Below, piece by piece: positions 25,610-47,063 of a stretch of DNA of 64,000 nucleotides. The position numbers were made by a program, and so were the translations under genes. The stretch comes from Azospirillum lipoferum 4B (lineage in GTDB: Bacteria > Pseudomonadota > Alphaproteobacteria > Azospirillales > Azospirillaceae): assembly GCF_000283655.1 (NCBI RefSeq), contig NC_016623.1, positions 578,501 to 642,500 on the forward strand, in the 5' to 3' direction. A model generated the notes under the pieces. It was given only the letters and a program-made list of their open reading frames with translations. It was not told the DNA's origin and did not search any database. Positions within the stretch are counted from its first letter, which is position 1. Every line of letters begins with the position of its first letter.

Positions 25610-28137
<2,528 letters not shown>

Positions 28138-28141
<4 letters not shown>

Positions 28142-29088: not shown

Positions 29089-29220
29089 TCGGGGCCTACT
29101 GATCCGGGCTGGCCCGATCCGGGTGTGCCGACTTTGCATTGCCGATGGTATCGGACGAGATTGAACACAGTGGACTCAACACAGTGGCAGGGGCGGGACC
29201 GAACCCGCCAGGAGGAAACA

Positions 29221-31002
<1,782 letters not shown>

Positions 31003-31052
31003 CCCCATCCATTCCTGAACCGTTTCCTCTCGGGCGTCCTCCCGAAGCCTTG

Positions 31053-31088
31053 CCCCTCTCCGCCCCGCGCGGGGAGGGGTTTTCTTTT
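31053..31088 (+). terminator. Rho-independent terminator of fruBKA
   Basis: A GC-rich stem-loop (CCCC GCGC GGGG core, extended by CCCCTC/GAGGGG pairing) at 31053-31079 is followed by a T-rich tract at 31080-31088. Confidence 0.8.
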
Positions 31089-31091
31089 TCG

Positions 31092-31117
31092 CGAAAATTC
31101 CGCGCCAGCTTTTGCCG
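31092..31117 (+). promoter_or_regulatory. Flagellar-type conserved motif, site A
   Basis: GAAAATTCCG is followed by CGCCAGCTTTTGCC, ending 46 bases before the ATG of the 105-residue protein at 31163. It is the same element, in the same orientation relative to its gene, as sites upstream of flagellin, the flgKL operon and the flgDE operon. Confidence 0.6.
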
Positions 31118-31162
31118 GCCCGTCCGTGTGATCCGTCACGACATCGCCCGGAGTGACGACCC

Positions 31163-31480
31163 ATGCTCGACGAAAAGCCCGATGTGATGCTGGGCAACAT
31201 GCTGCTGCACGTGAACCTGCTGGCCCTTGGCACGCTGATGACCAAGATGATGGCGGAACTGTTCCGCAAGGACGGGGACCCGGCCGGCAAGGCGGACGAA
31301 TGGCTGCGCCTGTTCGAGGCGACCGCCGCCCAGATGACCTTCGCCGGCGAAACGCCGGAATGGAGCGATCTGACGGCGCAGGAATTCCGCGACGTGCTGA
31401 TGCAGCACATCCACCGCGCCCGCGCCATGGCGCTGGGGGAGGAATGCGATCCGCGCGCCTATCTGCGTCATCACGGTTGA
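31163..31480 (+). CDS. Small protein of unknown function, probable member of the flagellar regulon
   Basis: A 105-residue acidic, mostly helical soluble protein with no signal peptide or membrane segment. It is rich in Met, Leu and Glu (MLGNMLLHVNLLALGTLMTKMM). GGAG lies 9 bases before the ATG. No known family is recognised. It is placed in the flagellar set for two reasons: the shared promoter-like motif just upstream, and the following gene being a TPR protein of the kind found with flagellin glycosylation. It could be a small chaperone, but that is inference. Confidence 0.6.
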   Translation: MLDEKPDVMLGNMLLHVNLLALGTLMTKMMAELFRKDGDPAGKADEWLRLFEATAAQMTFAGETPEWSDLTAQEFRDVLMQHIHRARAMALGEECDPRAYLRHHG

Positions 31481-31633
31481 GTCCGCCGCATCCATTCTGG
31501 CCGACGACTAAAGTGAAGCCCCTGCGATAAGAAAAATTGCGCAGTCGCGCAGGAGTTCTCCGCCGCTTCCGTACCAACGAACAGATGCGGTTCTGACACC
31601 GCAGACCAGTTCATTGACGGAACGGCGACGACC

Positions 31634-33943
31634 ATGGACGGGAACGCGACACGGCGTACCGAAGGCCTTCTGCGTCTTGCGGTCCAGCATCACAATGCCG
31701 GACAGATGGAGCGGGCGGAGCGGTTTTACCGCGAAATCCTGCGGATCGACCCGTCGCACGGCGACGCCGCCCATCTGCTCGGCCATATCGTCTTCCAGGA
31801 TGGGCGCCGCAAGGATGCCACCCGGCTGTTCGACACGGCGGCCCGTTCCAACATGCTGGTCGGCTCCTACCATCTGGTGCTGGGACAGGCGCTGATGGAG
31901 GAGGGGCGGGCGGAGGCGGCACTCGCCAGCGCCCGCCGCGCGCTGATCCTCAACCCCGACGACGCGGACGTGCTGTGCCTGCTGGGGGCCATCCTGGGAA
32001 GGCAGGGGCGGCCGGCGCCCGCACTTCGCTGCTACCGCACCGCCGCGCGGCTGGTGCCGGGTGCCGCCGAACCGCGGTTGGGCATGGGGCGGGCGCTGGA
32101 GGATTTGCGGCAGGCGGGCGCCGCACTCGGCTGCTACCGGCTGGCGGCACGGATGAGGCCGCAGGACCCAGCCATCCGCATCGCGCTCGCGAATGCGCTG
32201 CGCCGCTGTGGCCTGCTCGGCGAAGCGGCATCCGCCTATCGCGAGACGCTGCGGCTGGGCGTCGACAACGCCTCGGTCTGGGCCAATCTGGGCGCCACGC
32301 TGCAGGGGCTGGGCAGGCTTTCCGATGCGGAGGCGGCTTATGTCCAGGCTCTGCGCCGCCAGCCCGACCATGCCGAGACCCGCAACAATCTGGGCCTGCT
32401 GCTGCATGCGCAGGGTCGCCACGCCGACGCGCGGCAGCGGTTCCGCGCCGCTCTGGCGCTCGATCCAGCCCATCTGCCGGCGCTGGTCAATCTCGGCCTG
32501 GCGGAAGCGGCGCTCGGTCGCTACGACCTTGCGGAACGGTGGCAGCGCCGCGCCATCGCCCGCGACGGCCGTCAGGCCGAAGGCTGGAACAACCTTGGCA
32601 ACGCCTGCAAGGCGCAAGGACGGCGCGAGGAGGCGGAAGACTGCTGGAAACGCGCATTGGCGCTGAATCCCGCCTTCGCCGACGCGCTCGGCAATCTCGG
32701 TGCGAACCTCTCGGACAAGGAGGAGTTCGCGCCGGCAGTGGTGCAGGTGCGCCGCGCTATCCGGCTGCTGCCGGGCCATGCGCCGCTTCATGCCGTTCTG
32801 GCCTATGCGCTGAACGGCGCGCAGCGGACGGCGGAGGCCGGGGCCGCCTGCCGCCATGCGCTGGTGCTCGCCCCGGCGCTGGCCGATCCGCTCTGCACCC
32901 TTGGGCTGGCGGAACAGCGGCAGGGCCGTGCCGATGCCGGCCGCTGGTTCGAGCGTGCGGTCACCTCGGCCCCCGGCCATGCCCTGGCCCGCTTCAACCG
33001 CGGGCTGCTGTCGCTGGAGCGCGGGGCGCTGAGCGACGGCTGGGCCGACTATGCCTTCCGCTTCAAGGCGGGGCGGGTGCGTCCCGAACGGCGCTTCACC
33101 ATCCCGGAATGGACCGGCCAGCCGCTGGCCGGCAAACGCCTGTTCGTCTGGCGCGAGCAGGGGGTGGGGGACGAGTTCCTGTTCGCCTCCTGCTATCCCG
33201 ACCTGATCAAGCTGGCGGGAAGCGTGGTGATCGAATGCGAGCGCCGGCTGGTTCCGCTGTTCGCCCGCTCCTTCCCCAAGGCCACCGTGCGCGCCGAGCA
33301 GCCGCCTTGCGGACTGGTGGAGGCGGAAACCGTCGACTGCGACTATCACATCCCGGCCGGCTCGGTCCCGCGGCTGCTGCGGGAGCGGCTGTCGGCCTTC
33401 CCGGCGCGCTCCTGCTGGCTGTTCGCCGACGGCGGCCGCGTCGCCGATTGGCGGGAGCGGCTGGACGGCGCCGGCGACGACCTGCGCGTCGGCATCAGCT
33501 GGCGCAGCCAGCTGATGACCGCCGACCGCCGCGGCGCCTATCTGCCGCTGGATGCCTGGGGACCGGTCTTCGCCGTGCCCGGCGTCACCTTCGTCAACCT
33601 GCAATATGACGACTGCCGGCGCGAAATCCTCGATGCGGAAGGCCGCTTCGGACAGCCGATCTATGGCTGGACCGGGCTGGACCTGCGCGACGATTTCGAA
33701 GAGACGGCTGCCCTGGTCTCGGCGCTCGACCTCATCATCGCGCCGGCCAATTCCGTGGCGGAGCTGGCCGGTGCGCTGGGTGTGCCGGTCTGGCGCTTCG
33801 GCCATCGCGACTGGACGCAACTCGGCACCGGGGGGCGGCCCTGGTATCCGTCGATGCGCCTGTTCCAGCCGCTGGCCGGCCAGGGCCTGGAACAGGCGAT
33901 GGATCGCATCGCGGCGGAGCTGCGGCGGGTGGCGGGGCGCTGA
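31634..33943 (+). CDS. TPR-repeat protein with C-terminal GT9-like domain, possible flagellin glycosylation factor
   Basis: A 769-residue protein. Residues ~10-490 hold about thirteen TPR units of 34 residues, with recurring A/G-Y-L-P patterns such as AETRNNLGLLLHAQGRHADA and AEGWNNLGNACKAQGRREEA. The last ~250 residues (FTIPEWTGQPLAGKRLFVWREQGVGDEFLFASC to LIIAPANSVAELAGALGVPVW) match the glycosyltransferase-like tail of TPR proteins seen near flagellin genes. A role in glycosylating flagellin or another surface protein is likely. It follows the 105-residue protein by 153 bases and converges on the small gene after the ECF sigma factor. Confidence 0.75.
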   Translation: MDGNATRRTEGLLRLAVQHHNAGQMERAERFYREILRIDPSHGDAAHLLGHIVFQDGRRKDATRLFDTAARSNMLVGSYHLVLGQALMEEGRAEAALASARRALILNPDDADVLCLLGAILGRQGRPAPALRCYRTAARLVPGAAEPRLGMGRALEDLRQAGAALGCYRLAARMRPQDPAIRIALANALRRCGLLGEAASAYRETLRLGVDNASVWANLGATLQGLGRLSDAEAAYVQALRRQPDHAETRNNLGLLLHAQGRHADARQRFRAALALDPAHLPALVNLGLAEAALGRYDLAERWQRRAIARDGRQAEGWNNLGNACKAQGRREEAEDCWKRALALNPAFADALGNLGANLSDKEEFAPAVVQVRRAIRLLPGHAPLHAVLAYALNGAQRTAEAGAACRHALVLAPALADPLCTLGLAEQRQGRADAGRWFERAVTSAPGHALARFNRGLLSLERGALSDGWADYAFRFKAGRVRPERRFTIPEWTGQPLAGKRLFVWREQGVGDEFLFASCYPDLIKLAGSVVIECERRLVPLFARSFPKATVRAEQPPCGLVEAETVDCDYHIPAGSVPRLLRERLSAFPARSCWLFADGGRVADWRERLDGAGDDLRVGISWRSQLMTADRRGAYLPLDAWGPVFAVPGVTFVNLQYDDCRREILDAEGRFGQPIYGWTGLDLRDDFEETAALVSALDLIIAPANSVAELAGALGVPVWRFGHRDWTQLGTGGRPWYPSMRLFQPLAGQGLEQAMDRIAAELRRVAGR

Positions 33944-33958
33944 CCGTACGCGGAAAAG

Positions 33959-34237
33959 CTACATCAGCCGCGTCGGCTGATCGCCATCCTCGTCGAAGCC
34001 GCGTTCCGAGGGCGGCAGGCGGAAGGCGGCGGCGAAGATGCGGTCGGCGAGGCCGGGCGGGGGGCGATCCTCCGACCGGCCGAGCGCCAGTTCCATCGTC
34101 ACCATCTCGTCCAGCATCGCCTGCGCCTTGACCGAACGCAGAAGAAGGCGCCGCGCATCCCGGGCCGCATCGGCGGGCCAGAGTGCGAGGTCGCCCCCGT
34201 GGCGATCGAGCCGATCGCGAAACTCCTCATCCGTCAT
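33959..34237 (-). CDS. Small protein coupled to the ECF sigma factor, possible anti-sigma factor
   Basis: A 92-residue soluble protein starting at the ATG at 34237, which lies inside the end of the sigma factor gene (11-base overlap). The N-terminus RLDRHGGDLALWPADAARDARRLLLRS follows a pattern known from short alphaproteobacterial proteins encoded beside ECF sigma factors. No zinc-finger HxxxCxxC and no membrane helix are seen, so it would have to act as a soluble inhibitor or adaptor. Its last codons contain a perfect 7-base inverted repeat (33963-33969 and 33975-33981), which may form part of a terminator between the convergent genes. Confidence 0.65.
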   Translation of the reverse strand: MTDEEFRDRLDRHGGDLALWPADAARDARRLLLRSVKAQAMLDEMVTMELALGRSEDRPPPGLADRIFAAAFRLPPSERGFDEDGDQPTRLM

Positions 34238-34967
34238 CGAATGAATCCCTGGCCGCCTGCGCACTGGCGCGCAGCAGCAGCCGGAGCTGCTGGCGCGCAC
34301 GTTTCAAAAGGGATTCTACAGCACCTATGCTGATTTGCATAACGCTCGCGATGTCGGCGTTGCTTAAATTCTCGTAATAAAACAACGTCACCGCGGCGCG
34401 CTGCTGCGGGGTCAGCTTGTTCTGGGCATCCAGGAGGCGCGCGGCGACCTGCCGGCGGTGGATGGTGCTCACCGCGTCGGGCGCGGCGTCCGACGGTTCC
34501 GCCACCGCGTCCAGATCCTGGCCGACAGGCCGCCTCTTGTGGTCGATGCAGCGGTTCACCACCACCCGGTAGAGCCAGGTGGTGAAGCGGGCGCCGCCGT
34601 CGTCGGTCCATTGGGCGCGGCGTTGCCAGACCTGCAGGAAGGCATCCTGCACGACGTCCTCCGCCTCCGCCTCGTTGCCGGTCAGGCGGCGGGCCAGCGC
34701 ATAGGTGCGCTTCAGGTGGCGGTGGACCAGGCGCCGGTAGGCCGTCTGGCTGCCGGACCGGATCTGCGCCATGAGCGTCTCGTCCGGCTCCTCGCCCAGT
34801 GGAACGATGGCGCCGGCGGGGGTCCCCCGCGTCACCTCGCCGGTCATTGCCAGTCCGCGATTGGCCAGTCCGCGATTGGCCAGTCCGGAATCGGCCAGTC
34901 CGGGATCGGCGCGCCCGCAGTCGTCCGACCGGCGCCTGGCATCAAGCCGAGAGTCCGCCATGAGCAT
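34227..34967 (-). CDS. ECF-type RNA polymerase sigma factor in the flagellar cluster
   Basis: A sigma-70 family protein of about 246 residues. Region 2 is clear (LVHRHLKRTYALARRLTGNEAEAEDVVQDAFLQVW), with the FTTWLYRVVVNRCID block after it. Region 4 is clear (LTPQQRAAVTLFYYENLSNADIASVMQ, then VESLLKRARQQLR). There is no region 3, as expected for ECF factors. The start is uncertain between ATGs at 34967 and 34961. Either lies inside fliS, so translation is coupled. The N-terminal ~45 residues carry four copies of a five-residue repeat (GLADS/GLANR type). Its tie to fliS suggests that it controls late flagellar genes. Confidence 0.85.
   Translation of the reverse strand: MLMADSRLDARRRSDDCGRADPGLADSGLANRGLANRGLAMTGEVTRGTPAGAIVPLGEEPDETLMAQIRSGSQTAYRRLVHRHLKRTYALARRLTGNEAEAEDVVQDAFLQVWQRRAQWTDDGGARFTTWLYRVVVNRCIDHKRRPVGQDLDAVAEPSDAAPDAVSTIHRRQVAARLLDAQNKLTPQQRAAVTLFYYENLSNADIASVMQISIGAVESLLKRARQQLRLLLRASAQAARDSFDDG
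34849..34908. repeat. 15-bp tandem repeat, four copies, in the sigma factor N-terminus
   Basis: The unit gccagtccgcgattg occurs exactly at 34849-34863 and 34864-34878, then with two changes each at 34879-34893 and 34894-34908. It is in frame and encodes repeated GLA-N/D-R/S-type pentapeptides between the start and region 2. Copy-number change would keep the frame. Confidence 0.85.
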
Positions 34968-35421
34968 GATCCATCGTTCTCCCGACGACGGATGCATGCG
35001 GCCCTTTGGCCGGGGCACCGACGACAGTGGAAGGCCCGCCGCGTTCTGCGGCGATGGCCTGCCAGGCCTTCAGCATGAAGGAGGTCTGGCTGATGAGTGA
35101 GTCGCAGGCCGCAACCGGATCCTTCCGGCTGGCGGCGGCGCCCGCCTGTGCGATCAGCCGGCGATAGAACCGCCGGAGCGTCCAGGCAACATCCTCATAT
35201 TTGTCGAAAATTAGAATGGAATCAAGACCCGCGAACACCATCACGGCGCGCTGGATGGCCACATGATGGTCTTCGAAGCGGCGCGCGGCCGCGGCGTCGC
35301 GGGCGGCGTGCAGGTGGATCATCGCCCGCTCGTAAAGCCGGACCACGGCGACCAGCGGCGGCACCGTGCTGTTGGCGACGGCATAGGCGTTCAGGGCTTT
35401 CGAATAGGCGGAGTTGCGCAT
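34942..35421 (-). CDS. fliS: Flagellar protein FliS, flagellin export chaperone
   Basis: A 159-residue protein with the FliS layout: AYAVANSTVPPLVAVVRLYERAMIHL near the start, then helices with FAGLDSILIFDKYEDVAWTLRRFYRRL and a C-terminal aromatic KAWQAIA. FliS binds the C-terminus of flagellin in the cytoplasm and prevents premature polymerisation. It is longer than usual by about 30 residues because of a Gly/Ala/His tail that overlaps the sigma factor start. It follows fliD by 70 bases. Confidence 0.85.
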   Translation of the reverse strand: MRNSAYSKALNAYAVANSTVPPLVAVVRLYERAMIHLHAARDAAAARRFEDHHVAIQRAVMVFAGLDSILIFDKYEDVAWTLRRFYRRLIAQAGAAASRKDPVAACDSLISQTSFMLKAWQAIAAERGGPSTVVGAPAKGPHASVVGRTMDHAHGGLSA

Positions 35422-35491
35422 GGCGCCGGGTCCTCGTGATGGGGAAGAGCCTTGCTTTCGGAAGGGCTGGGGTCGGTCGTACTGAGACCGC

Positions 35492-37177
35492 TCAGCTGTC
35501 GTCGTCCTCGCTGTAGGTCAGCTGTTTCAGCAGCAGGGCCGCGGTTTCGGCCGCCGCCTCCAGCCGGGCGTAATAGGCGGTCAGCGTCGTGCGGTAGGTT
35601 TCGGCCTTGGTGCGGATGTCGTCCGACCGGCTCTGCAGGGTGGTGTCCTGGGCCTCCAGGTCGTCGATGGCGGTGGTGAGGTCGCTGTCGTAGTCGGCGG
35701 CCGCAGCATCGATGGCGCTGTACAGCGTGTCGGCCAGTCCCTGGGAGAAGTCGACGTCGACGCTGCCGCTGCTGCCGGTGTAGACGAGCACGATGCCCTC
35801 ATAGGCCGTGCCTTCGGCGCCGATGATGCGGTTGCCGCTGACGGTGAACAGGCTGCTGTCGCCATCGACCGAGGCGGAGGTCAGCGTCCCGTCCTCGCCC
35901 CGGACGATGTCGAGGGTGAAGGACTGTGGCGTCTGCGCGGTTTCGTAGCGCAGCAGGGACAGCTGGCTCGACGAAGACGTCATATTGAGGCCGAGCAGCT
36001 GCTTCACTGCATCCAGGTCGGAGCTGAGGACGCTGTTCAGCGTGTCCTCGTCCAGCTCCAGATTGTTGGTGCTGTCGAACGTGATGCCGAGGGAGGCAAG
36101 GGACAGCACGGTCCCGTCGTCAGTGGCGATCGTGGTGTTCAGCGCGCTCGATACCGACTGCGTGATCTGGCGCAGCAGGCTGTCGGCGAACAGCGTCGCA
36201 TCCTCGCTCGCCTCGCCGTCCGAGGTGGTCGATTGCTGGGTGACCACGAAGTCGCGATAGGCGTTGTAGGCATCGACGAAATCGGTGATCGCGGTCTTGA
36301 TCGACGACAGGTCGGTCGAGATCTCCATCGAGACCGCGGTGTCCGGGCTGGCGCTGTAGAGATTCAGCGTCACGCCCTCGATGGCGTCGTCGATGGTGTT
36401 GGAACTGCGGGTGATGGTGACGCCGTCGATCTCGACGATGGCGTCCTGGACCGCGACCAGTTCGTTCTTGATCGCGCCGTCGTCATCGGTGAGGCCCAGC
36501 GAGGACAGCACCCCGTCGCCGCCGTCGGTCAGCGTGATCTCTTCGCCGGTGTTGTTGGCGGTCAGGATCAGCTGATAGCCGCTGTCGCTGACCTGCACGA
36601 TGCTGGCGGTGACCCCGCTCGTCGATTTCTGGGAGTTGATGGCATCGCGCAGGTCGGTCAGGCTGTCGTCGCTTTCCATCGAAATGGTCACGGCGCTGCC
36701 ATCGGCCGCCTGCAGCGTGAAGCTGCCGGAATACCCCATCGCGTCGGTCTTGCTGCTGGCGCTGTCGGCGGCGATCTTGTGCTTCGTCGCGATCTGCTGC
36801 ACCACCACCGAATAGGTCCCGACCTCGGTATCGTCGTCCACCGTCGCGCTGAACACGTCGTCGTCGCCGATATAGGCGGCGCGCTGGCTGAACAGGTTGC
36901 TGGAGGCGCCGGTCGATGTGCTGCGGTTGCGCAGACCGTCCAGCGATTCGTTCACCGTCTGCAGAAGGTCCTGCAGGTCGGTGTAGGCGGTGATCTTCGC
37001 CTCGTTCGCGGTGATCTTGGCGTCGATCCGGTCGGCCTTGGTCAGGCGCGCGTTGACCTTCGCCTCGATCAGCAGGGAATAGTCGATTCCCGTGCCGGAA
37101 TCGCTGGAGGTCAGCGCCGAATAGCCGGTGCTTGCGGCGGTGGTCGTCGTGCTGGTGGTCGAGGTGACTGTGGTCAT
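35492..37177 (-). CDS. fliD: Flagellar hook-associated protein 2, filament cap FliD
   Basis: A 561-residue protein. The N-terminal region has GIDYSLLIEAKVNARLTKADRIDAKI, the FliD_N pattern that follows a Ser/Thr-rich leader. The central D2/D3 part is rich in Ser, Thr and Asp. The C-terminal FliD_C coiled coil ends in LTAYYARLEAAAETAALLLKQL. Export is by the flagellar type III route, so no signal peptide is expected. The ATG at 37177 was chosen; another ATG nine codons upstream cannot be excluded. It lies between fliC and fliS, the standard order. Confidence 0.93.
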   Translation of the reverse strand: MTTVTSTTSTTTTAASTGYSALTSSDSGTGIDYSLLIEAKVNARLTKADRIDAKITANEAKITAYTDLQDLLQTVNESLDGLRNRSTSTGASSNLFSQRAAYIGDDDVFSATVDDDTEVGTYSVVVQQIATKHKIAADSASSKTDAMGYSGSFTLQAADGSAVTISMESDDSLTDLRDAINSQKSTSGVTASIVQVSDSGYQLILTANNTGEEITLTDGGDGVLSSLGLTDDDGAIKNELVAVQDAIVEIDGVTITRSSNTIDDAIEGVTLNLYSASPDTAVSMEISTDLSSIKTAITDFVDAYNAYRDFVVTQQSTTSDGEASEDATLFADSLLRQITQSVSSALNTTIATDDGTVLSLASLGITFDSTNNLELDEDTLNSVLSSDLDAVKQLLGLNMTSSSSQLSLLRYETAQTPQSFTLDIVRGEDGTLTSASVDGDSSLFTVSGNRIIGAEGTAYEGIVLVYTGSSGSVDVDFSQGLADTLYSAIDAAAADYDSDLTTAIDDLEAQDTTLQSRSDDIRTKAETYRTTLTAYYARLEAAAETAALLLKQLTYSEDDDS

Positions 37178-37335
37178 GGCGACGGTAATCCCCCGGATGG
37201 TCATCCTTCTCCGGCTGCCGGTATCGCGGCGGCCGGGGAAGGATGAGCGCGGCGGTTGTAGAGGCCGCCGGATGGCGGCGCCCCGCGGTGATGTGAGGCT
37301 GGGCGGGGCGCGCCGGCGCGGCGGCCGGCCAACCG

Positions 37336-38160
37336 TCAGCGCAGCAGGGAGAGCAGGTTTTCCGGCATCGAGTTCGCTTGCGACAGGACGGCGATGGCCG
37401 CCTGGGTCAGCACCTTTTCCGAAGCGAGCTGCGATTGCTGGGCCGCCACGTCGACGTCCATGATCGCGGATTGCGCCGCTTCGGTGTTCTCGATGGTGGT
37501 GTCGATCATGTCGCTGCGGAACTCGAAGCGCGAGATCAGCGCGCCGACATCGGCGCGGGCGTCCGACAGGCTGGTCACCGCGGTGTCGAGCGCGGTCAGC
37601 GCGGCGGCGGCGGTGGCCGACGTGCCGACATCCAGCGTGTTGATGCCCAGCCCGGTGGTGGTCACGTCGCCGATGGTCACCGTGATGTTGTCGGTGTCGG
37701 TGGTGCCGACGCGGAAGCTCACGCCCGACGCCCATTGTTCGGTGCCGTCGAGCAGCGATTCGTCGTTGAATCGGGTGCCGGACGCGATGCCGTCGATTTC
37801 GTCCTGCAACTGCTGGAATTCGGCATCCAGATAGGCGCGCTCGTTGTCGGTGACCGAACCGGAGAGCGACTGCGTCGCCAGCGAGCGCATGCGCTGCACG
37901 ATGTCGGAGATGCTGGACATGCCGCCGTCGGCGGTCTGCAGGATCGACGAGCCGTGCGAGGCGTTGGTGGCTGCCTGGTTCAGCACGGTGATGTCCGACT
38001 GCAGCGAGGTGCCGACGGCGAGGCCGGCGGCGTCGTCCGACGCCTTGGTGATGCGCGAGCCGCTGGCGATCTTCGACACCGAATCCGACTGGTTTTCGGA
38101 ATTGATGTTCAGATAGCGAAGCGCCGAATTGGATGCCGTGTTGGTCGTGATGACGGGCAT
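37336..38160 (-). CDS. fliC: Flagellin
   Basis: A 274-residue flagellin. The N-terminal helix domain has ITTNTASNSALRYLNINSEN, SGSRITKASDDAAGLAVGTSLQSDI and MRSLATQSLSGS. The C-terminal domain has DVDVAAQQSQLASEKVLTQAAIAVL and ends in ANSMPENLLSLLR. The central variable region is short, as in lateral-type flagellins. GGAGACCAGATC precedes the ATG at 38160. A conserved motif lies 65 bases upstream. It could be the lateral rather than the polar filament protein; sequence alone does not decide. Confidence 0.95.
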   Translation of the reverse strand: MPVITTNTASNSALRYLNINSENQSDSVSKIASGSRITKASDDAAGLAVGTSLQSDITVLNQAATNASHGSSILQTADGGMSSISDIVQRMRSLATQSLSGSVTDNERAYLDAEFQQLQDEIDGIASGTRFNDESLLDGTEQWASGVSFRVGTTDTDNITVTIGDVTTTGLGINTLDVGTSATAAAALTALDTAVTSLSDARADVGALISRFEFRSDMIDTTIENTEAAQSAIMDVDVAAQQSQLASEKVLTQAAIAVLSQANSMPENLLSLLR

Positions 38161-38224
38161 GATCTGGTCTCCTGATCGAACCGGGGCCGTTTCGGCGACC
38201 CTCACCGGGACTCACGGGGGACGC

Positions 38225-38247
38225 GGCGGAAACTGGCGGGGTTTTTC
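38225..38247 (-). promoter_or_regulatory. Flagellar-type conserved motif, site B (upstream of flagellin)
   Basis: On the minus strand an A-rich block (GAAAAACCC) is followed by CGCCAGTTTCCGCC, 65 bases before the flagellin start. It differs from sites A, C and D by a C-to-T at the base after CGCCAG and one pyrimidine change. Confidence 0.6.
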
Positions 38248-38286
38248 GATTGGGGTAGAAGTTTTTTGCGGGCGCCCTCGCAGCGG

Positions 38287-39192
38287 TCACAGGTAGTCGG
38301 ACAGGCTGTTCTCTTCGAGGATCTTCATCAGGCTCATGGTCGCCTCCAGCGAGGCCTGGAGCTGCGACAGCCTGGTGGTTGATTCGGCCAGATCGATGCT
38401 GCGGATGTCGTCGACCTGGGTCTGCAGCACCAGCTGCTCGTCCACATGACGGTCGATGGTGTTTTCCAGCGACGCGCTGGCGGCGCCCAGCTTGGCCTGG
38501 ACGATGGTCAGGCCGTCGGTCGCGTCGGATGCCAGCGTCGTCGCTTCGGCCAGCAGATCCTCGTCCACCGGATCGGTCGACATGTTGGCGATCAGGCTGA
38601 AGGCGCGCAGGGCCTGTTCGAAGGCCGGATCGTCGGCGGTCACGCCGTAGGACAGAACGAAATCGTCGGCAGCCTGGAAATGCGCGACCGTGGAATCGCC
38701 CTGGTAATAGCCGGTGTCGGAGCTGGACGGATAGGTTTGGGCAGCATAGCTGTCGAGATCCACCGCCGTCCGGTCGGTGCGCCCGCCGGCGAACAGGTAG
38801 CGTCCGTCCTGCTGTGTGTTCATCAGGCCGGCGAGCTCCTCCATCAGCTGGCCGGCTTCCGCCACCACGCCCTCGACCCCGGCGGCATTGTCGCCCATCA
38901 GTCCGGTGATCAGCGCGCTGAGGCGGGAGGTCAGGTCGGTCATGCTGCCGACCGCGTCGTACATCGACTGGATGCGGCCGTTCACGACCTCGCCCTCGTC
39001 GACATACTGTTCCAGGCGGCGGTAATGGCTTTCCAGATTGACCAGCCGGCTGCTGTCGGTGGCGATGCCCTTGTAATCGGTGGAGTTCAGGCCCGACGCC
39101 GACCGGATCTGTTCGGCCGCCACCTTGGCTTCGGCCTTCAGCATGTACTGGACGAGCGTGTTCTGATGGTTGTAGGTCGCGACCCGTTCCAT
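38287..39192 (-). CDS. flgL: Flagellar hook-associated protein 3, hook-filament junction FlgL
   Basis: A 301-residue protein with the flagellin-fold N-terminus (ERVATYNHQNTLVQYMLKAEAKVAAEQIRSASG) and a C-terminal helix (LSQLQASLEATMSLMKILEENSLSDYL). The internal GRYLFAGGRTDRTAV motif is typical of FlgL. GGAGACCGCG precedes the ATG. It follows flgK by 11 bases in one operon, and no terminator is evident before the flagellin promoter region. Confidence 0.92.
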   Translation of the reverse strand: MERVATYNHQNTLVQYMLKAEAKVAAEQIRSASGLNSTDYKGIATDSSRLVNLESHYRRLEQYVDEGEVVNGRIQSMYDAVGSMTDLTSRLSALITGLMGDNAAGVEGVVAEAGQLMEELAGLMNTQQDGRYLFAGGRTDRTAVDLDSYAAQTYPSSSDTGYYQGDSTVAHFQAADDFVLSYGVTADDPAFEQALRAFSLIANMSTDPVDEDLLAEATTLASDATDGLTIVQAKLGAASASLENTIDRHVDEQLVLQTQVDDIRSIDLAESTTRLSQLQASLEATMSLMKILEENSLSDYL

Positions 39193-39203
39193 CGCGGTCT
39201 CCT

Positions 39204-40964
39204 TTACTGAACCATGTCCAGCGCCGTGTCGAACATCTCCTGCAGCGTCTTCATGACCGCGGCTGCGGCCTCGTAGGCGGATTGCAGGGTGGAGATCGCA
39301 GCCGTCTCCTCGTCGACATTGACGCCGCTCCGGGACGAAAAGGTCGTCTCCAGGCTGCTGGTGTAGGTTTCCTGGCTCTCCAGGGCGCTGGCTGCCGTCT
39401 CGGCGAGCGTAGCGGCACCCTGGATGACGGCGCCGGCATAGCCGGCGAAGGTGGTGCTGCGGGCACTCAGGCCCCCGGCGGCATCGAAGGAGCGGCTGGT
39501 CGAGAAGGCGGCCGACAGCGCGCTGGCGATGGAGCCCTCGCCGCTGGTCAAGGCCGTATCCCCGGCGGTCAACCCGCTGGTGGAGGACAGGACGCCGGTG
39601 GCGAGCAGGCTGCTGTCGGCGGAGATGCGCGCCGCCACCTCGATGTCGGAGGCGCCGGTTCCGGTCAGCAGGTCGTTCAGGCCGTAGGCGTCGGAGAAGG
39701 CGCCGGTCGTCCCGTCGTTGGCGTCGCCGCCGAGCGCGATGCCGTTGCTGGAACTGTCGGCGGAGATCACCAGCTTGCCGTCGGCGGAGATCGAGGCGGA
39801 GGCGTTGCTCATCGTGTTGATGGCGTCCACCACGTCCTGCAACGTCGACATGGTCGACAGGTCGATGTCCAGAACCTCCGCCGCCGTGCCGCTGCTGTCG
39901 GTGACGGCGACCCGCAGCGTGCCGCTGGTGACCTTGAGTGCGTCGCCGGCCGATACCGTTTCGGTTCCCGTCAGTGTCTGCGGTGCCGGATAGGAGGTGC
40001 CCTGGTTCTGGATGCCGTTCAGCGTGTCGATCAGCGAGGTCGCCAATTCGTCCAGGGCGGCCTGCTGGGCCGGCAGATCGCTGTCGCGCAGCTGCACCAG
40101 CGCGCCGAGCGAGCCGCCCAGCGAGGAGCCGGTGATGTCGGTGCCGTTCAGCATGATGCCGTTGAAGCCGCTGCTGCCGCTGGCGCTGTAGGTCGTATCG
40201 GCGCTCACCGAGGAGGCCGGCGTGTAGGACAGCTCGTGCACCGCGCTGTCGAGCAGCGACTTGCCCGACGCGGTGGAGATGCGCATCAGCCCGCTGTCGT
40301 CGACCTGATAGGTGACGTCGAGATCGGAGGCGAGAGACTTCAGCGCCGTGTTGCGCTGGTCCTCCAGGTCGGTGACGTTCTGGCCGAGCGCCTTGCCCTT
40401 GACGATCTGCTCGTTCAGGTCGTCGATGCTGTGCAGCGTCTCGTTGATGCTGTCGACGGTGGTGGCGATCTCGTCGTCGGCCTGGGCGCGCAGCGACTGG
40501 ACGGTGGAGGAGGTGCTGCGCAGCGTCTCGGCCAGGTCGGACAGGTCCTGCACGGTCGCGGCCTTGGCGCTCCCGCTTTCCGGCGAGGTGGCGAGCGTGC
40601 CCAGCGTGTCGGCCAGCGCGTCGATCATCGAGCCGATGTCGGTGCCGGTGCTGTCATCGTCCGCCGTCACGCTGCCGAGTGACGATTGCAGCTGGTCGAG
40701 ATAGCTGTCGCGCGTTTCGGCATAGCCGAGGTCGGACTCCGCCGACACGATGGTCTTCAGCAGATAGCGGTCGACATTGCTGGAGACGGAGGTGATGTCG
40801 ACGCTGGAGATTCCGGTCCCGGTGTCGCGGGTGACGGTGGAGGAGGTCTTGCGGGTATAGCCCTCGGTATCGGCGTTGGCGACATTGGAGGAGGCGACCG
40901 CCAGCCCGACCTCGGACGTGCGCAGAGCCGATGTGGCGATGGATCCGGCGACGCGAAGCGACAT
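39204..40964 (-). CDS. flgK: Flagellar hook-associated protein 1, FlgK
   Basis: A 586-residue protein. The N-terminal rod/hook motif ALRTSEVGLAVASSNVANADTEGYTRK and the C-terminal SGVNVDEETAAISTLQSAYEAAAAVMKTLQEMFDTAL are the FlgK signatures. The middle is Ser/Thr/Asp-rich. It forms the first junction ring between hook and filament. GGGAGACCGCGCC precedes the ATG. It is followed by flgL and preceded, after 30 bases, by a 192-residue unknown protein. Confidence 0.95.
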   Translation of the reverse strand: MSLRVAGSIATSALRTSEVGLAVASSNVANADTEGYTRKTSSTVTRDTGTGISSVDITSVSSNVDRYLLKTIVSAESDLGYAETRDSYLDQLQSSLGSVTADDDSTGTDIGSMIDALADTLGTLATSPESGSAKAATVQDLSDLAETLRSTSSTVQSLRAQADDEIATTVDSINETLHSIDDLNEQIVKGKALGQNVTDLEDQRNTALKSLASDLDVTYQVDDSGLMRISTASGKSLLDSAVHELSYTPASSVSADTTYSASGSSGFNGIMLNGTDITGSSLGGSLGALVQLRDSDLPAQQAALDELATSLIDTLNGIQNQGTSYPAPQTLTGTETVSAGDALKVTSGTLRVAVTDSSGTAAEVLDIDLSTMSTLQDVVDAINTMSNASASISADGKLVISADSSSNGIALGGDANDGTTGAFSDAYGLNDLLTGTGASDIEVAARISADSSLLATGVLSSTSGLTAGDTALTSGEGSIASALSAAFSTSRSFDAAGGLSARSTTFAGYAGAVIQGAATLAETAASALESQETYTSSLETTFSSRSGVNVDEETAAISTLQSAYEAAAAVMKTLQEMFDTALDMVQ

Positions 40965-40994
40965 GGCGCGGTCTCCCTCTCCTTCGTTGCGGGG

Positions 40995-41573
40995 TCAGAC
41001 CGTCACGCCGACGGCATGGCCGGTGGTGCGCATGGCCACCCGTGCGCCGTACCGCGCACCCGGACCGCAGGCGACGCCGTAGACGCCGGCCGGCGCGGTG
41101 GAGGCGGCGCGCAGGGCGGCGCCGATGGCGTTCTGGCGGGCGCGGTGGACCTTGATCTGGGCCTCCATCACCCGCATGCGGGCGGCAAGCGCCGGCAACA
41201 CCTGCCCGGCGGCGGCCTTGGCCGCGCCGCGTACCGCCGGGGCGACGCGCTTGCTGCGGACCTGTGCCAGCGCATCGGCCAGCCGGTCCTTCCAGGTCCT
41301 CAACAGGGTCTGCATGTCGCCCGCCGCCAGCAATGCGTCGCGCGGACGGCCTTCCCGTACCGCCGCCTCGGCCCGTGCCGCCGTCCGGTCCAGTTCGGCG
41401 ACGAAGTCTTCCAGCACCTGCACCGCATCGACGCGCAGGAAGATCGTGGGGGCGTCCGGAACGGTCGAGGCGGCGGGCGCCGCGGCCTTCGTCAGCTTCA
41501 GCTCGGCAGGCTGGGACTTCGCCGCCGCGGGCTTTTGGGGTGCCGGTTTGCGCAGGGTCTGCTTGAGCGCCAT
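40995..41573 (-). CDS. Unknown flagellar-operon protein, possible FlgK/FlgL export chaperone
   Basis: A 192-residue basic protein starting at the ATG at 41573 with GGAG 8 bases upstream. The Ala/Pro/Lys-rich N-terminus looks disordered. Residues ~50-160 are alpha-helical and rich in Ala, Arg and Leu (VLEDFVAELDRTAARAEAAVREGR). It has no membrane segment. It is the first gene of the operon with flgK and flgL and carries the conserved motif upstream. By position it could be a FlgN-like chaperone, but its sequence does not clearly match that family. Confidence 0.6.
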   Translation of the reverse strand: MALKQTLRKPAPQKPAAAKSQPAELKLTKAAAPAASTVPDAPTIFLRVDAVQVLEDFVAELDRTAARAEAAVREGRPRDALLAAGDMQTLLRTWKDRLADALAQVRSKRVAPAVRGAAKAAAGQVLPALAARMRVMEAQIKVHRARQNAIGAALRAASTAPAGVYGVACGPGARYGARVAMRTTGHAVGVTV

Positions 41574-41612
41574 GGCGAAGGCTCCGGGGTTGTGATGTCG
41601 GGTTCCACGGCG

Positions 41613-41643
41613 GGCGGGGCGAAAGCTGGCGCTGTATTTTTTT
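41613..41643 (-). promoter_or_regulatory. Flagellar-type conserved motif, site C (flgKL operon)
   Basis: On the minus strand a run of A residues and TACAG is followed by CGCCAGCTTTCGCC and a GC-rich tail, 40 bases before the ATG at 41573. Confidence 0.6.
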
Positions 41644-41661
41644 TTAAGGAGAGCCGCCCTG

Positions 41662-41919
41662 TCAGCGGCGTACGGCCATCGCCTTGCCATAGGCGCTGAC
41701 CGCGGCATTCGCGGCGCGGCCGCGGTGGATGCGGGCGGCGAGGCTACGCTTTTCGCTGCCCAGCCGGTCGATCAGCGAGATCAGATCGTCGGCAAGGGCC
41801 AGCCGCTCGGCCCGCGTGCTGCTGCGGGCCAGCAGCGACCGCGCATGCGCCACCAGCCGGCGATGTTCCAGCAGCAGGGAGTCGGCGCGGGTGAACCCTT
41901 CGTCCGGTGCGGCGGCCAT
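41662..41919 (-). CDS. Small helical protein of unknown function in the flgDE operon
   Basis: An 85-residue protein starting four bases after the flgE stop, so it is co-translated with flgE. It is Arg/Ala/Leu-rich and entirely helical in character (LLEHRRLVAHARSLLARSSTRAERLALADDLISLIDRL). There is no signal peptide. It could be a chaperone of the type III flagellar apparatus or a hook-assembly accessory, but no family is recognised. The flgKL operon begins only about 90 bases later. Confidence 0.6.
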   Translation of the reverse strand: MAAAPDEGFTRADSLLLEHRRLVAHARSLLARSSTRAERLALADDLISLIDRLGSEKRSLAARIHRGRAANAAVSAYGKAMAVRR

Positions 41920-41923
41920 GGCG

Positions 41924-43219
41924 TCACCGCTTCATCGAGATCAGCGTGTCCAGCATGTCCTGCGCCGTCGTCATCACCTTGGATGCGGCGGAATAGGCCT
42001 GCTGGGCGACGATCATCCGGCTGAACTCGTCGGTCAGTTCGACGGTCGAGCTTTCCAGGGAGCCGGCCTCGATGTCGCCGGCCTTGCCGTCGCCCGCGGT
42101 GCGCAGCTGGTAGCTGCCGGATTCGTAGGTCTGGGTGAAGGTGGTTCCGCTCTCGCTGTCCAGCCCGTCGGCATTGGCGAAGGTCGCGATCGGGATCTGG
42201 TAGATCGCCCGCGTTTCGCCGTTGTCGAAGGTGGCGCGCACCACGCCTTCGCTGTCGATGGTGGTGCCGGTCAGCGTGCCGGGCTCGTAGCCGTCCTTGG
42301 TCGCCGTCCAGTCGCCGATTTCCGGTTCATCCTCGCCGGACGTGTACTGCGTCAGCCCGTCGATGCCGTCGGCGGTGCCGAGATCCATCGAGACGCTGCT
42401 GTCGGCGGCGCCGGTCGTCCATCCGGTGACGGAGAAGGCGATGGCGGAGGGATCGACCGCCGTGCCGTTCTGGGTGGCGCCGGCCAGCGACCCGTCGTCG
42501 TTGAACTCGATCGTGATCGGGAAGCCGGAAATGGTGCCGGTCGTGGTCGTTCCATCGTTGGAGCTGACCGGGTTGGCGGCATCGACCGACCATGTGTTGT
42601 CGGCGGTCTTGCTCCAGGTCATGGTGACGGAGTGGCTGTTGCCCAGCGCGTCGAACATCTCGACATCGGAGGTGAAGCTGTCGCCGGTTTCGGCATCGGA
42701 CGGCAGATTGGCCTCGATCCCGAGGGTGGAGGTCGCCTTGGGCGTGCCCTTGATGTTGGAGAGATTGATCGATTCCAGGCTGTCGACCGAGGTCTTGTTG
42801 CCGGCGCTGACATTGCCGCTGTCGTCCAGCTTCCAGCCCGAGAGGTAGTAGCCCTCCGAATTCACCAGATACCCGTCGGAATCGGCGCTGAACGAGCCGT
42901 TGCGGGTGAAGTAGGTTCCGCCGTCGGCCGTGTCGTCCGACACCACGAAGAAGCCCTCGCCGTTCACCGCCAGATTGGTGGTGACGCTGGACGTTTCGAT
43001 CTCGCCCTGGCTGCTGATGCTGCGGCTGTTCGAGGCGATGACGCCGCCGACCTGCTCGTCGACCGTGGTGGTCTTGTTGATGTAGGAGGTGAACTCGGTG
43101 ACGGTGCCCTTGAAGCCGGTGGTGCTGGAATTGGCGATGTTGCTGGAGATGCTGGCGAGCGCCTTGCTCTGGGCGGTCAGCCCGGACACGGCGCTGTACA
43201 TGGCGCTGGTGATGCTCAT
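41924..43219 (-). CDS. flgE: Flagellar hook protein FlgE
   Basis: A 431-residue hook subunit. The N-terminal AMYSAVSGLTAQSKALASISSNIANSSTTGFKG is the standard rod/hook motif. The C-terminal SSTVELTDEFSRMIVAQQAYSAASKVMTTAQDMLDTLISMKR is the FlgE-specific end. The central domains are Ser/Thr/Asp-rich. It polymerises to form the hook outside the cell. It lies downstream of flgD, whose product caps the growing hook. Confidence 0.95.
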   Translation of the reverse strand: MSITSAMYSAVSGLTAQSKALASISSNIANSSTTGFKGTVTEFTSYINKTTTVDEQVGGVIASNSRSISSQGEIETSSVTTNLAVNGEGFFVVSDDTADGGTYFTRNGSFSADSDGYLVNSEGYYLSGWKLDDSGNVSAGNKTSVDSLESINLSNIKGTPKATSTLGIEANLPSDAETGDSFTSDVEMFDALGNSHSVTMTWSKTADNTWSVDAANPVSSNDGTTTTGTISGFPITIEFNDDGSLAGATQNGTAVDPSAIAFSVTGWTTGAADSSVSMDLGTADGIDGLTQYTSGEDEPEIGDWTATKDGYEPGTLTGTTIDSEGVVRATFDNGETRAIYQIPIATFANADGLDSESGTTFTQTYESGSYQLRTAGDGKAGDIEAGSLESSTVELTDEFSRMIVAQQAYSAASKVMTTAQDMLDTLISMKR

Positions 43220-43260
43220 CGCGGCACCTGTCGTCTGGAATTCGGGGAGGGGAGGAGAGG

Positions 43261-43971
43261 TCAGGACACCGACAGCACGTCGTCGGACGACAGGCTGACG
43301 CCGCCGACGCTCAGCACCGCGGTGCCGGACGAGCTGTCGACCGAGGTCACGGTGCCCTTGAAGCGCGTCGTCGTGTCGATGGCCTTGCCGTTGGCGTCGA
43401 GGGCCTTGACCGTCAGTGTGTAGGTGCCGCTGCTGTAGCTGCTGCCGTCGGTGCCGATGCCGTCCCAGGTCACTTCATGGGTGCCGGCATCGGTGGAGGA
43501 ACTGACGTCGCTGTAGACCGTGTTGCCGCTGGAATCGGTGATGGTGAGCGTCACCGACGACGCTTCGGAATCGAGGTCGTATTCCCAGGTGGCCTCGCCG
43601 TCCTGCAGCGGCGTGGTGGAGCCTTCGGCCTCCACCGTCTTGCCGTAGTAATTGATGGCGCTGCTGCCGGACCCGAGCGACGAGCTCACCGAGCTGGCAA
43701 GGTCTGAGACCGTGCTGTTCAGCTCGTCGAGCTTGTCGTTGGTCGTCATCTGCTGTTCCAGCCCGGAAAGCTGGACGAGCTGGGTGGTGAAGGTGGTGGT
43801 GTCCACCGGGTTCGTCGGATCCTGGGTTTCCAACTGCTTCAGCAGCAGGGTCAGGAACGTCTCGTAGCTTTCGCTGACGCTGGACGACGAACTGGTCGAC
43901 GACGAACTGCTGGACGACGAGGAGGACGTCGTGGTCGTCGAGGACGTGGAAGTGACCGAATCCACCAGCAT
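43261..43971 (-). CDS. flgD: Flagellar hook-capping protein FlgD
   Basis: The protein is 236 residues from the ATG at 43971, chosen over a GTG four codons upstream because GTGGAG is well spaced before it. After a poly-Ser/Thr leader comes the FlgD N-terminal domain (YETFLTLLLKQLETQDPTNPVDTTTFTTQLVQLSGLEQQ). A FlgD Ig-like part follows, with HEVTWDGIGTDG and SGTYTLTVKALDANG. It is a temporary cap for FlgE assembly. A run of about 30 Ser/Thr residues at the start is longer than usual. Confidence 0.93.
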   Translation of the reverse strand: MLVDSVTSTSSTTTTSSSSSSSSSSTSSSSSVSESYETFLTLLLKQLETQDPTNPVDTTTFTTQLVQLSGLEQQMTTNDKLDELNSTVSDLASSVSSSLGSGSSAINYYGKTVEAEGSTTPLQDGEATWEYDLDSEASSVTLTITDSSGNTVYSDVSSSTDAGTHEVTWDGIGTDGSSYSSGTYTLTVKALDANGKAIDTTTRFKGTVTSVDSSSGTAVLSVGGVSLSSDDVLSVS

Positions 43972-44103
43972 CGCGCTCTCCACCCAATCGCGGCCCGTTC
44001 GCGGACTCCGGGATGGGGTTCGCGTCGGTTCAGGCCGGTGTCGTTCCGGGAGGGGCGACGGGCAGGCGCCGCCCCGTTCGTTCTGTGGCTATCCACGGAA
44101 CGG

Positions 44104-44130
44104 CGGGCGAAAGCTGGCGCGGTTTTTTTC
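44104..44130 (-). promoter_or_regulatory. Flagellar-type conserved motif, site D (flgDE operon)
   Basis: On the minus strand GAAAAAAACCG is followed by CGCCAGCTTTCGCC. It lies about 130 bases before the flgD start at 43971 and just downstream of the terminator of the 171-residue gene. Confidence 0.6.
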
Positions 44131-44939: not shown

Positions 44940-47063
44940 TCAGCATCCGATCGGCTGTCCGTCCGCCGCCCGTTGCAGAAGCAAAGCGGATGGGCGCCAT
45001 TGCGGTCCGCCGATGTCGCGGTGGTAACGTTGCACGGATGCTGCGATTTTGCCCAGCCCCTCGCGGTCGGCCCAGAACAGCAGGCCGCCGCGCCAGGATG
45101 GAAAGCCGTAGCCGTGCAGCCAGATTGCGTCGATGTCGACCGGCCGCGCGGCGATGCCCTCCTCCAGAATCTTGGCGGCCTCATTGACCATGACGTAGAG
45201 GCAACGTTCGCGAACCTCCTCGTCGCTGACGGCGCGCGGGGCGATGCCGCGATTTCGGCGGTCCTCCTCGATCACCGCCGCCACCTCCGGATCGGGGATG
45301 GGGGTGCGGCTGCCGGGTTCGTAGCGGTAGACGCCGGCCGAGGTCTTCTGGCCGTAGCGGCCGCGTTCCGCCAGCACGTCCAGCCAGTTGGGCGCCTGCG
45401 CCTCCGGATCGCCGGCCTTGCGGCGCTCCTCGCGGATGCGCCAGCCGACATCGATGCCGGCAAGGTCGGTCATCGAAAAATGGCCGAGCGGGAAGCCGAA
45501 CTCCGTCAGCACGCGGTCGACCTGCTCGGGGCTGGCGCCTTCCTCGACCAGCGCCATCGACTCACGCCCGCGCTGGTGCAGGATGCGGTTGCCGACGAAG
45601 CCGTAACAGACGCCGACCGCCACGCCCACCTTGCCGATCCGCCGCGCCAGACCCATCACGGTTGCCAGGACGGTATCGGAGGTCCGGGCACCGCGTACCA
45701 CCTCCAGCAGGCGCATGACGTTGGCCGGGCTGAAGAAATGCATGCCCAGCACGTCCTGCGGCCGGCCGGTCGCCGCGGCGATGGCATCGACATCCAGCGT
45801 AGAGGTGTTGGTGGCGAGGATCGCGCCCGGCTTGCAGGTGTCGTCCAGCGTCCGGAAGATGGTCCGCTTGACCTCCATGCTCTCGAACGCCGCCTCCACC
45901 ACCAGATCGGCGTCGGCGAGGTCGCCGTAGGACAGGGTGGGGCGGATCAGGGCCATCCGCTCCTCCACCTGCGCGGCGGTCAGGCGGCCCTTGCGGGCAG
46001 TGGCTTCGTAGTTGCGGCGGATGGCGGCGGTGCCGCGGTCCAGCGCCTCCTGCGCGCTGTCGACCAGAACCACCGGGATGCCGGCATTGGCGAAGCACAT
46101 GGCGATGCCGCCGCCCATGGTGCCGGCCCCGATCACGCCGACCTTGCGGATCTCGCGCGTCGGCGTGCCGGCCGGCAGGCCGGGGACCTTCGCCACCTCG
46201 CGCTCCGCAAAGAAGGCGTGGATCAGTCCGGCGCGCTGGGGCGAGTCCATGCAGGCCAGGAACAGTTCCCGCTCCCGCGCCGTGCCCTCGGCGAAGGGCA
46301 GGGTGACGGCGGCCTCCACCGCATCGACGATCCGGTGGGGGGAGAACAGCTGCGGCTGACGCTTCGCCAGTTCCGCTCGCTTCGCCGTGAACAGGGCGGG
46401 GTCGGTCCCGGCGATGCGGTCGGTGCGGGCGCTGACCGGCTCCGGCATCCGCCCGTCCGCGAGCAGCCGGTCGGCGGTGCGCAGGCCTGCCTCAAGCGGC
46501 GAAACATCGTCCTCCACCGCATCGACAAGGCCGATTGTCAGAGCCTCCTCCCCGCCCACCGGGTCACCGGACAGAATCATGTCGAGCGCCTTGGCGGCGC
46601 CGACCAACCGCGGCAGCCGCTGGGTGCCGCCGGCGCCGGGCAGCAGGCCCAGCTTCACCTCCGGCAGGCCGAGCTTTGCCGATTTCAGCGCGACGCGGAG
46701 ATGGCAGGCCAGCGCGACCTCCAGCCCGCCGCCCAGCGCCGTGCCGTGGATGGCGGCGATCACCGGCTTGGTCGAGGCGTCGAGGCGGGCCACCACCTCC
46801 GGCAGGGTCGGCGGTGCCGACGGCTTGCCGAACTCGCGGATATCCGCCCCGGCCATGAAGGTGCGGCCGGCACAGACCAGCAGAAGTGCCTCCGCCTCCG
46901 CATCGGCAAGCCCCGCCTCCAGCGCCGCCACCAGCCCGCTGCGCACGCCATGGCCGACGGCGTTGACCGGCGGATAGTCCACGGTGATGACGCCGACGCG
47001 CCCCTGCCGGGCATACTGGACAGGATTGGACGGAATCGCTTCAGTCTGGGCCGGCGACGGCAT
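44940..47063 (-). CDS. Bifunctional enoyl-CoA hydratase / 3-hydroxyacyl-CoA dehydrogenase (FadJ/FadB type)
   Basis: A 707-residue beta-oxidation enzyme. The N-terminal crotonase domain has GRTFMAGADIREF near 66-78 and GTALGGGLEVALACH near 107-121, which builds the oxyanion hole. After about residue 300 comes the NAD-binding dehydrogenase (VGVIGAGTMGGGIAMCFANAG), then LGMHFFSPANVMRLLEVV and a C-terminal helical domain. It hydrates and then oxidises acyl-CoA intermediates in the cytoplasm. The thiolase partner gene is not in this window. The promoter region upstream carries TTCCGAA-type half-sites shared with the next two units. Confidence 0.93.
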   Translation of the reverse strand: MPSPAQTEAIPSNPVQYARQGRVGVITVDYPPVNAVGHGVRSGLVAALEAGLADAEAEALLLVCAGRTFMAGADIREFGKPSAPPTLPEVVARLDASTKPVIAAIHGTALGGGLEVALACHLRVALKSAKLGLPEVKLGLLPGAGGTQRLPRLVGAAKALDMILSGDPVGGEEALTIGLVDAVEDDVSPLEAGLRTADRLLADGRMPEPVSARTDRIAGTDPALFTAKRAELAKRQPQLFSPHRIVDAVEAAVTLPFAEGTARERELFLACMDSPQRAGLIHAFFAEREVAKVPGLPAGTPTREIRKVGVIGAGTMGGGIAMCFANAGIPVVLVDSAQEALDRGTAAIRRNYEATARKGRLTAAQVEERMALIRPTLSYGDLADADLVVEAAFESMEVKRTIFRTLDDTCKPGAILATNTSTLDVDAIAAATGRPQDVLGMHFFSPANVMRLLEVVRGARTSDTVLATVMGLARRIGKVGVAVGVCYGFVGNRILHQRGRESMALVEEGASPEQVDRVLTEFGFPLGHFSMTDLAGIDVGWRIREERRKAGDPEAQAPNWLDVLAERGRYGQKTSAGVYRYEPGSRTPIPDPEVAAVIEEDRRNRGIAPRAVSDEEVRERCLYVMVNEAAKILEEGIAARPVDIDAIWLHGYGFPSWRGGLLFWADREGLGKIAASVQRYHRDIGGPQWRPSALLLQRAADGQPIGC

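Follow-up and report, generated by a model that had tools for sequence, protein, structure and literature searches.

Which sigma factor reads a promoter-like motif that recurs four times in a flagellar region of Azospirillum lipoferum 4B, and why is the same motif found 5' of a gene that has no flagellar annotation? The motif lies in a window of 64,000 nucleotides (nt), the whole stretch of DNA that was analysed (NC_016623.1, positions 578,501–642,500, forward strand; coordinates below are window positions). There it precedes the flagellin gene fliC2 (site B), the hp2-flgKL genes, of which hp2 is the first (site C), flgDE (site D), and an open reading frame of 105 residues, here called p105 (site A). 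The motif is very probably a promoter read by RpoE6, an extracytoplasmic function (ECF) sigma factor encoded in the same region. RpoE6 and its fliC2 promoter have already been published for A. brasilense Sp7 (PMC12826043). As far as our literature search shows, what is new are the predicted promoters at flgDE, hp2-flgKL and p105, the strict bounds of the regulon, the link to p105, and the element pair in other genera. In the open-licence full-text literature of PMC there was no second paper on RpoE6; among the matches listed there, judged by title and the start of the abstract, none was on ECF control of flgDE in Azospirillum.

The four sites, with their predicted transcription starts, are:

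31094–31128, + strand: site A, predicted promoter of p105, with a CGCCAG -35 element (31103–31108), 16 bases, and a CGTG -10 element (31125–31128); start predicted near 31138
38213–38247, - strand: site B, promoter of fliC2, CGCCAG-N16-CGTGAG, with the -35 and -10 of the mapped Sp7 promoter; start predicted near 38203
41606–41640, - strand: site C, predicted promoter of hp2-flgKL; start predicted near 41596
44094–44128, - strand: site D, predicted promoter of flgDE; start predicted near 44084

One architecture is common to all four: an A-block, CGCCAG, 16 bases, and CGTG. The -35 CGCCAG is present at every site and CGTG follows it 16 bases on; the full CGTGAG is found only at B, A having CGTGTG and both C and D having CGTGGA. 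From the CGTG of site A to the ATG of p105 there are 34 bases. The initial annotation had described a 14-base core in each site, identical in C and D and differing from these by one base in A and two in B; places and differences were both confirmed, the cores being at 31103–31116 (+), 38225–38238 (-), 41618–41631 (-) and 44106–44119 (-). The core alone is only mildly enriched: allowing up to two mismatches, the window has 16 matches, whereas 100 shuffles averaged 8.3 and one of them reached 16. The longer pattern CGCCAG[CT]TTN4CN7CCGTG is found 4 times in the window and never in 200 first-order Markov simulations; the bare pair CGCCAG-N16-CGTG is found 5 times, where the simulations (again 200) averaged 0.82 and peaked at 4. 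The fifth match of the pair, at 45091 (+), is inside an opposing open frame (44940–47063).

The two elements are those of a mapped promoter. In A. brasilense Sp7 the fliC2 start was placed by 5' rapid amplification of cDNA ends (5' RACE) 58 bases before the ATG, with CGCCAG as the -35, CGTGAG as the -10, and a spacing of 16 bases (PMC12826043, December 2025). Derivatives of this promoter without either element were dead, and a fliC2 fusion required rpoE6 in A. brasilense and responded to RpoE6 in Escherichia coli (PMC12826043). The same paper showed binding by Asf6, which it proposed as the anti-sigma factor of RpoE6, and reported that overexpression of RpoE6 raises FlgL, FliD, FliS, and FliC2, that the filaments of an asf6 mutant are by inference almost wholly FliC2, and that rpoE8, pqq, and exaA respond to RpoE6. 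Its Discussion names junction and filament genes as RpoE6-controlled, and the paper notes that a flagellum-specific sigma factor was previously not known in Alphaproteobacteria (PMC12826043). On plasmid p3 of A. brasilense MTCC4038, where the flagellin has the accession of the paper's FliC2, CGCCAG-N16-CGTGAG begins at -93 and base -58 is a G, matching the published start.

The window holds counterparts of both regulators:

34227–34847, - strand: rpoE6, ECF sigma factor by Pfam and NCBIfam; start inferred, the reading frame being open to 35018
33959–34237, - strand: asf6, anti-sigma factor counterpart, named by synteny with the published cluster; no Pfam match

Over residues 12–205 the RpoE6 of the window and the A. 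brasilense protein share 72.7% identity. This locus and the RpoE6/Asf6 fliC2 promoter of Sp7 are alike in their -35, 16-base spacing, CGTG(AG) -10, gene order, and orthologous sigma factor. They differ in that the Sp7 work mapped only the fliC2 promoter and aligned only that intergenic region, its main text reporting no promoter for flgDE, hp2-flgKL, or the 105-residue gene (PMC12826043). The mapping also corrects how the motif had been read. The initial annotation took the A-rich block for the -35 and the GCC-rich end for the -10, and was wrong on both: by the published fliC2 mapping the -35 is CGCCAG (PMC12826043), and the -10, CGTG(AG), 16 bases past it, had been missed. It was right that this is no good sigma-54 site, a by-eye look at the consensus finding no GG-N10-GC pair in the conserved block. 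It listed an ECF sigma among its proposed tests, and overlooked that RpoE6 is encoded inside the very region it described; its interpretation overall is partly supported.

Does the motif follow the sigma factor from genome to genome? The comparison covered 82 genomes of the family, 45 of them in the genus and including A. brasilense (G numbers denote genomes, G001 being the nearest; C numbers denote contigs and L numbers loci). The exact 26-base pattern is present in 26/82, with 46 matches in the 45 genus genomes and 4 in other genera. All 46 genus matches stand before the same four genes (fliC2 19, p105 12, flgD 11, hp2 4); a reversed control pattern has 9 matches in the same 45 genomes. Orthologs of RpoE6 (72–100% identity) occur in 24 of the 82, all of the genus, the next matches being at most 50% identical, and FliC2 is present in exactly those 24 of the 45 genus genomes. 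Of the 24 genus genomes that bear RpoE6, 21 have the 26-base pattern, against 1 of the 21 that lack it.

The counts by gene, made with the strict form CGCCAG-N16-CGTG within 350 bases before the start in the window and the genus genomes, point the same way. A strict site precedes fliC2 in 24/25, flgD in 21/23, and p105 in 17/17; simulated upstream regions have one in 18/13000. The predicted hp2-flgKL promoter, sought within 1500 bases before flgK, is strict in 17/25. The flgD count leaves out G031, where the contig ends first, and G004, where flgD is outside the stretch fetched. Genes internal to the clusters rarely have a site of their own (flgE 1/24; flgL, fliD, fliS, asf6, and flgK 0/25 each), and the near-misses at fliC2 of G012 (CGCCCA) and at flgD of G016 (AGCCAG) and G012 (CGCCTG) keep the 16-base spacing and the CGTG. 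Outside the genus, one scan of named genomes placed among its best 80 loci six with a relative of RpoE6 and cluster genes. In four of these (L195, L196, L198, and L199: a Rhodospirillales metagenome-assembled genome (MAG), two unplaced alphaproteobacterial MAGs, and Pararhodospirillum oryzae) fliC2 and flgD alike have CGCCAG-N15..17-CGT before them, in 8/8 upstream regions, 7 of them at 17 bases, versus 191/11000 simulated ones.

How far does such a regulon extend? A search of 19 genomes with a looser pattern turned up 55 matches, of which 38 fall at the four promoters and 17 lie elsewhere. The 13 of these genomes with RpoE6 held 51 matches, including all 38 and another 13, about one per genome; the 6 without RpoE6 held 4, and the reversed pattern gave 29 in all 19. 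At this background rate there is no strict-sequence excess beyond the four units, and weaker sites would be missed. Of the 17 matches elsewhere, eleven were inspected: an open frame covers each, of at least 296 codons in 9 and of 196 and 170 codons in the other two, which is weak evidence given how common open frames are in GC-rich DNA. G026, G032, and G035 share one such match in nearly identical form, and the two of these that were inspected lie under a 639-codon opposing frame. No fifth member of the regulon stood out among the 11 inspected. The initial annotation had raised the prospect of the motif occurring at the same rate before unrelated genes; the genome scan did not find this, the looser pattern occurring elsewhere only at background.

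We propose that RpoE6, restrained by its partner Asf6, would drive four units: fliC2-fliD-fliS-rpoE6-asf6, hp2-flgKL, flgDE, and p105. At sites A, C, and D this assignment is drawn from the sequence, and RpoE6 would be expected to read them as it reads fliC2. Since rpoE6 is within its own target unit, RpoE6 would feed itself. The flagellar genes of the window are:

34942–35421, - strand: fliS
35492–37204, - strand: fliD, name assigned from position and gene order relative to the annotated A. brasilense cluster
37336–38160, - strand: fliC2, small flagellin, 274 residues
38287–39192, - strand: flgL, with flagellin-type domains; named by position
39204–40964, - strand: flgK
40995–41573, - strand: hp2, 192-residue protein with a helical model; first gene past site C
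41662–41919, - strand: 85-residue unknown following flgE
41924–43219, - strand: flgE
43261–43971, - strand: flgD

Here and in the annotated A. brasilense cluster, all flagellar genes are for parts beyond the rod. The four units together would make an extra hook, junction, cap, and filament, and since flgDE have the same promoter, the hook too would come under RpoE6, along with the filament. The FlgD family PF03963 has 3 copies in 19 and 2 copies in 5 of the 24 RpoE6-bearing genus genomes, and at most 2 in all 21 without RpoE6, so the RpoE6 set would usually be an additional hook-to-filament set. The product of hp2, considered as a FlgN-type chaperone, has a helical model of middling confidence (pLDDT 73.0) and a best Foldseek match at E 0.38.

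The arrangement resembles late control by FliA/FlgM in enteric bacteria, where likewise an alternative sigma factor, paired with an antagonist, activates the genes for junction, cap, and filament. It differs in that the sigma factor is of the ECF type, the promoter sequence is another, the hook genes flgDE are included, and the sigma gene is in its own target operon. A bolder proposal, which we put forward tentatively and as somewhat less than an even chance, is that RpoE6 commands a complete swap-in outer flagellum (FlgD, FlgE, FlgK, FlgL, FliD, FliS, and FliC2) lacking its own basal body. Freeing RpoE6 from Asf6 would then exchange all parts beyond the rod, and the genus-specific p105 would be a new switch factor. 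This proposal draws support from the PF03963 copy numbers and from the almost pure FliC2 filaments inferred for the asf6 mutant (PMC12826043). With a promoter at hook, junction, cap, and filament genes that can be recognised from sequence alone, this sigma factor makes a flagellum-swapping switch testable.

Several observations weigh against RpoE6 as the reader of these sites, or restrict the claim. The Fisher p of 1e-8 for the 26-base pattern in genomes with and without RpoE6 is inflated by the kinship of the genus genomes, whose independence it overstates. Three RpoE6 genomes (G005, G008, and G018) are without the exact 26-base form, keeping CGCCAG-N16-CGTG. Site C was not found within 1500 bases before flgK in 8/25 (G005, G007, G008, G011, G012, G016, G019, and G037), A. 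brasilense-like genomes among them; contig C2 of G007 and the A. brasilense record NZ_QLKQ01000010.1 have the same two sites. The two Rhodoplanes loci among the six outside the genus have the same cluster and no such site in any of their three upstream regions (0/3). Genome G025 has p105 with a perfect site and neither rpoE6 nor fliC2. Lastly, rpoE8, pqq, and exaA respond to RpoE6 (PMC12826043) whereas outside the four units we see mere background, so that some targets are indirect or have weaker sites.

Is RpoE6 then the only sigma factor that reads the motif? Another ECF sigma, RpoE8 or a paralog, might read it as well, the 105-residue gene then answering more than one signal. The rpoE8 promoter responds to RpoE6 and RpoE8 both (PMC12826043), the genus genomes hold further ECF sigmas 42–49% identical to RpoE6, and G025 retains its perfect site without rpoE6. 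We nevertheless think a second reader rather unlikely, as an exact match is absent from 20 of the 21 genus genomes that lack rpoE6, even though 16 of the 21 have at least one relative of RpoE6 at E 1e-35 or better.

The anatomy of the sites was drawn from a consensus of 79 of them, weighted by gene and all preselected for CGCCAG and CGTG. Conserved in it are an A-tract at -9 to -4 before CGCCAG, CGCCAG itself, TTT early in the spacer, and C-CGTG. Because the sites were chosen for CGCCAG and CGTG, independent evidence of conservation is limited to the A-tract, the TTT, and the C that precedes CGTG. With the published start 10 bases past CGTG, the A-tract would fall at about -39 to -44, the position of an UP element, and may aid the promoter. 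The promoter would thus consist of about six A-tract bases at the UP-element place, the -35 CGCCAG, a 16-base spacer with a T-rich start, and the -10 CGTG. Might the conserved block instead bind an activator, or act as a leader element in the mRNA? Part of the flgD leader past the motif is conserved too, the sequence at 44068–44093 (-), GATAGCCACAGAAC, being exact in 14/23 loci, which hints at a separate function for the 5' untranslated region. However, the block spans about -35 to -8 of the mapped start with both halves needed (PMC12826043), and its distance to the start codon varies between 33 and 138 bases across genes and genomes (from CGTG, 51–138 at fliC2, 92–125 at flgD, and 33–57 at p105), which makes an activator site or leader element highly unlikely.

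If RpoE6 reads the motif, what of the gene behind site A? Two features concern it:

31163–31480, + strand: p105, 105-residue protein with a helical model and no known family
31052–31090, + strand: terminator-like hairpin (31052–31080) and T-run between the fructose phosphotransferase system (PTS) operon and site A, from a pattern scan that found 3 against 0.6 in shuffles

The hairpin suggests that p105 is its own unit. Sixteen of the 82 family genomes have the gene, each of them in the genus; among 385 evenly drawn genomes of the class it was found in one, again of the genus (at most 12 candidates scored per genome), so that it is so far restricted to this genus. Of the 16, 15 also have rpoE6. 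It follows the fructose PTS gene fruA in 11/16 and is otherwise by a tetratricopeptide repeat (TPR) gene beside asf6 or near flgD. In the window it is flanked by fruA and the TPR gene and lies at a distance of 2.5 kb from asf6. Among plasmid records p105 was found only in one of A. oryzae, annotated as 'hypothetical protein' after the fructose operon. The three A. brasilense plasmids with rpoE6 yielded no copy, and this may explain its absence from the work on Sp7. The protein is modelled as three long helices (pLDDT 85.9); no family matched in Pfam up to E 10 or in NCBIfam up to E 0.1, and neither PDB sequences (best E 0.98) nor Foldseek (best E 2.9) gave a structural match, so these searches tie p105 to no known family of flagellar chaperones or regulators.

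With no known family, and a fructose PTS gene before it in those 11 genomes and the window, p105 could be an unrelated gene with a chance match at site A. This is hard to credit when a strict site stands before 17/17 copies and accompanies p105 in each of at least three gene neighbourhoods, when a hairpin parts it from the fructose operon in the window, and when rpoE6 is present in all but one of its 16 genomes. The view of the initial annotation that the motif marks one flagellar regulon including a gene without flagellar annotation is borne out. It had counted two forward genes of unknown role in this regulon; the next forward gene after p105, the TPR gene (31634–33943, +), starts 153 bases past it and has no strict site of its own. 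The p105 protein may work with this flagellar set, and its promoter provides a first functional lead for a family without known relatives.

The consensus of FliA (sigma-28) promoters is TAAA at -35 and GCCGATAA at -10, and the motif, with AG-TT and then CCG 11 bases on, has a loosely FliA-like layout. That the sites are degenerate FliA promoters is barely tenable, even though late flagellar genes follow them: at the four sites, as in the 79 aligned ones (preselected for these elements), we see CGCCAG and CGTG in place of the FliA elements, the FliA model TIGR02479 is above its cut-off in 0/45 genus genomes versus 3/14 control genomes, its best matches are in frames of about 660–680 residues, which by size we would name housekeeping sigmas, and the mapped promoter, which shares CGCCAG and CGTG, depends on RpoE6 (PMC12826043). 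On the model and the published mapping the FliA reading is rejected in the genus, unless there is a FliA below the cut-off, and the earlier judgement that the motif is not a good FliA site holds.

Some further observations concern these genes and their neighbours. Directly before p105 is the fructose PTS operon (25610–31002), and the rpoE6 mutant of A. brasilense grows poorly on fructose (PMC12826043); the link may be real or positional. In G025 (L191) p105 is the only regulon gene with a site, and may be a relic, the sign of a missing replicon, or under another sigma factor. The TPR gene is convergent with asf6, and its product is matched in the rpoE6 stretches that were fetched from genus genomes, also where p105 is absent; its C-terminal part has no Pfam family beyond weak TPR. 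Genes of the pyrroloquinoline quinone (PQQ) biosynthesis type, for a radical SAM protein, a PqqC-like protein, and a lactamase-fold protein, are at 55214–58383, and no strict CGCCAG-N16-CGTG site precedes these pqq genes (55–58 kb) though pqq responds to RpoE6 in Sp7 (PMC12826043). In the nearest genome a second ECF sigma gene, its product 47% identical to RpoE6, is beside flgD and points away from it (G001:C4:228618-229136, - strand; L031:6619-7137), and 203-residue frames that score similarly to this second sigma are present in many genus genomes.

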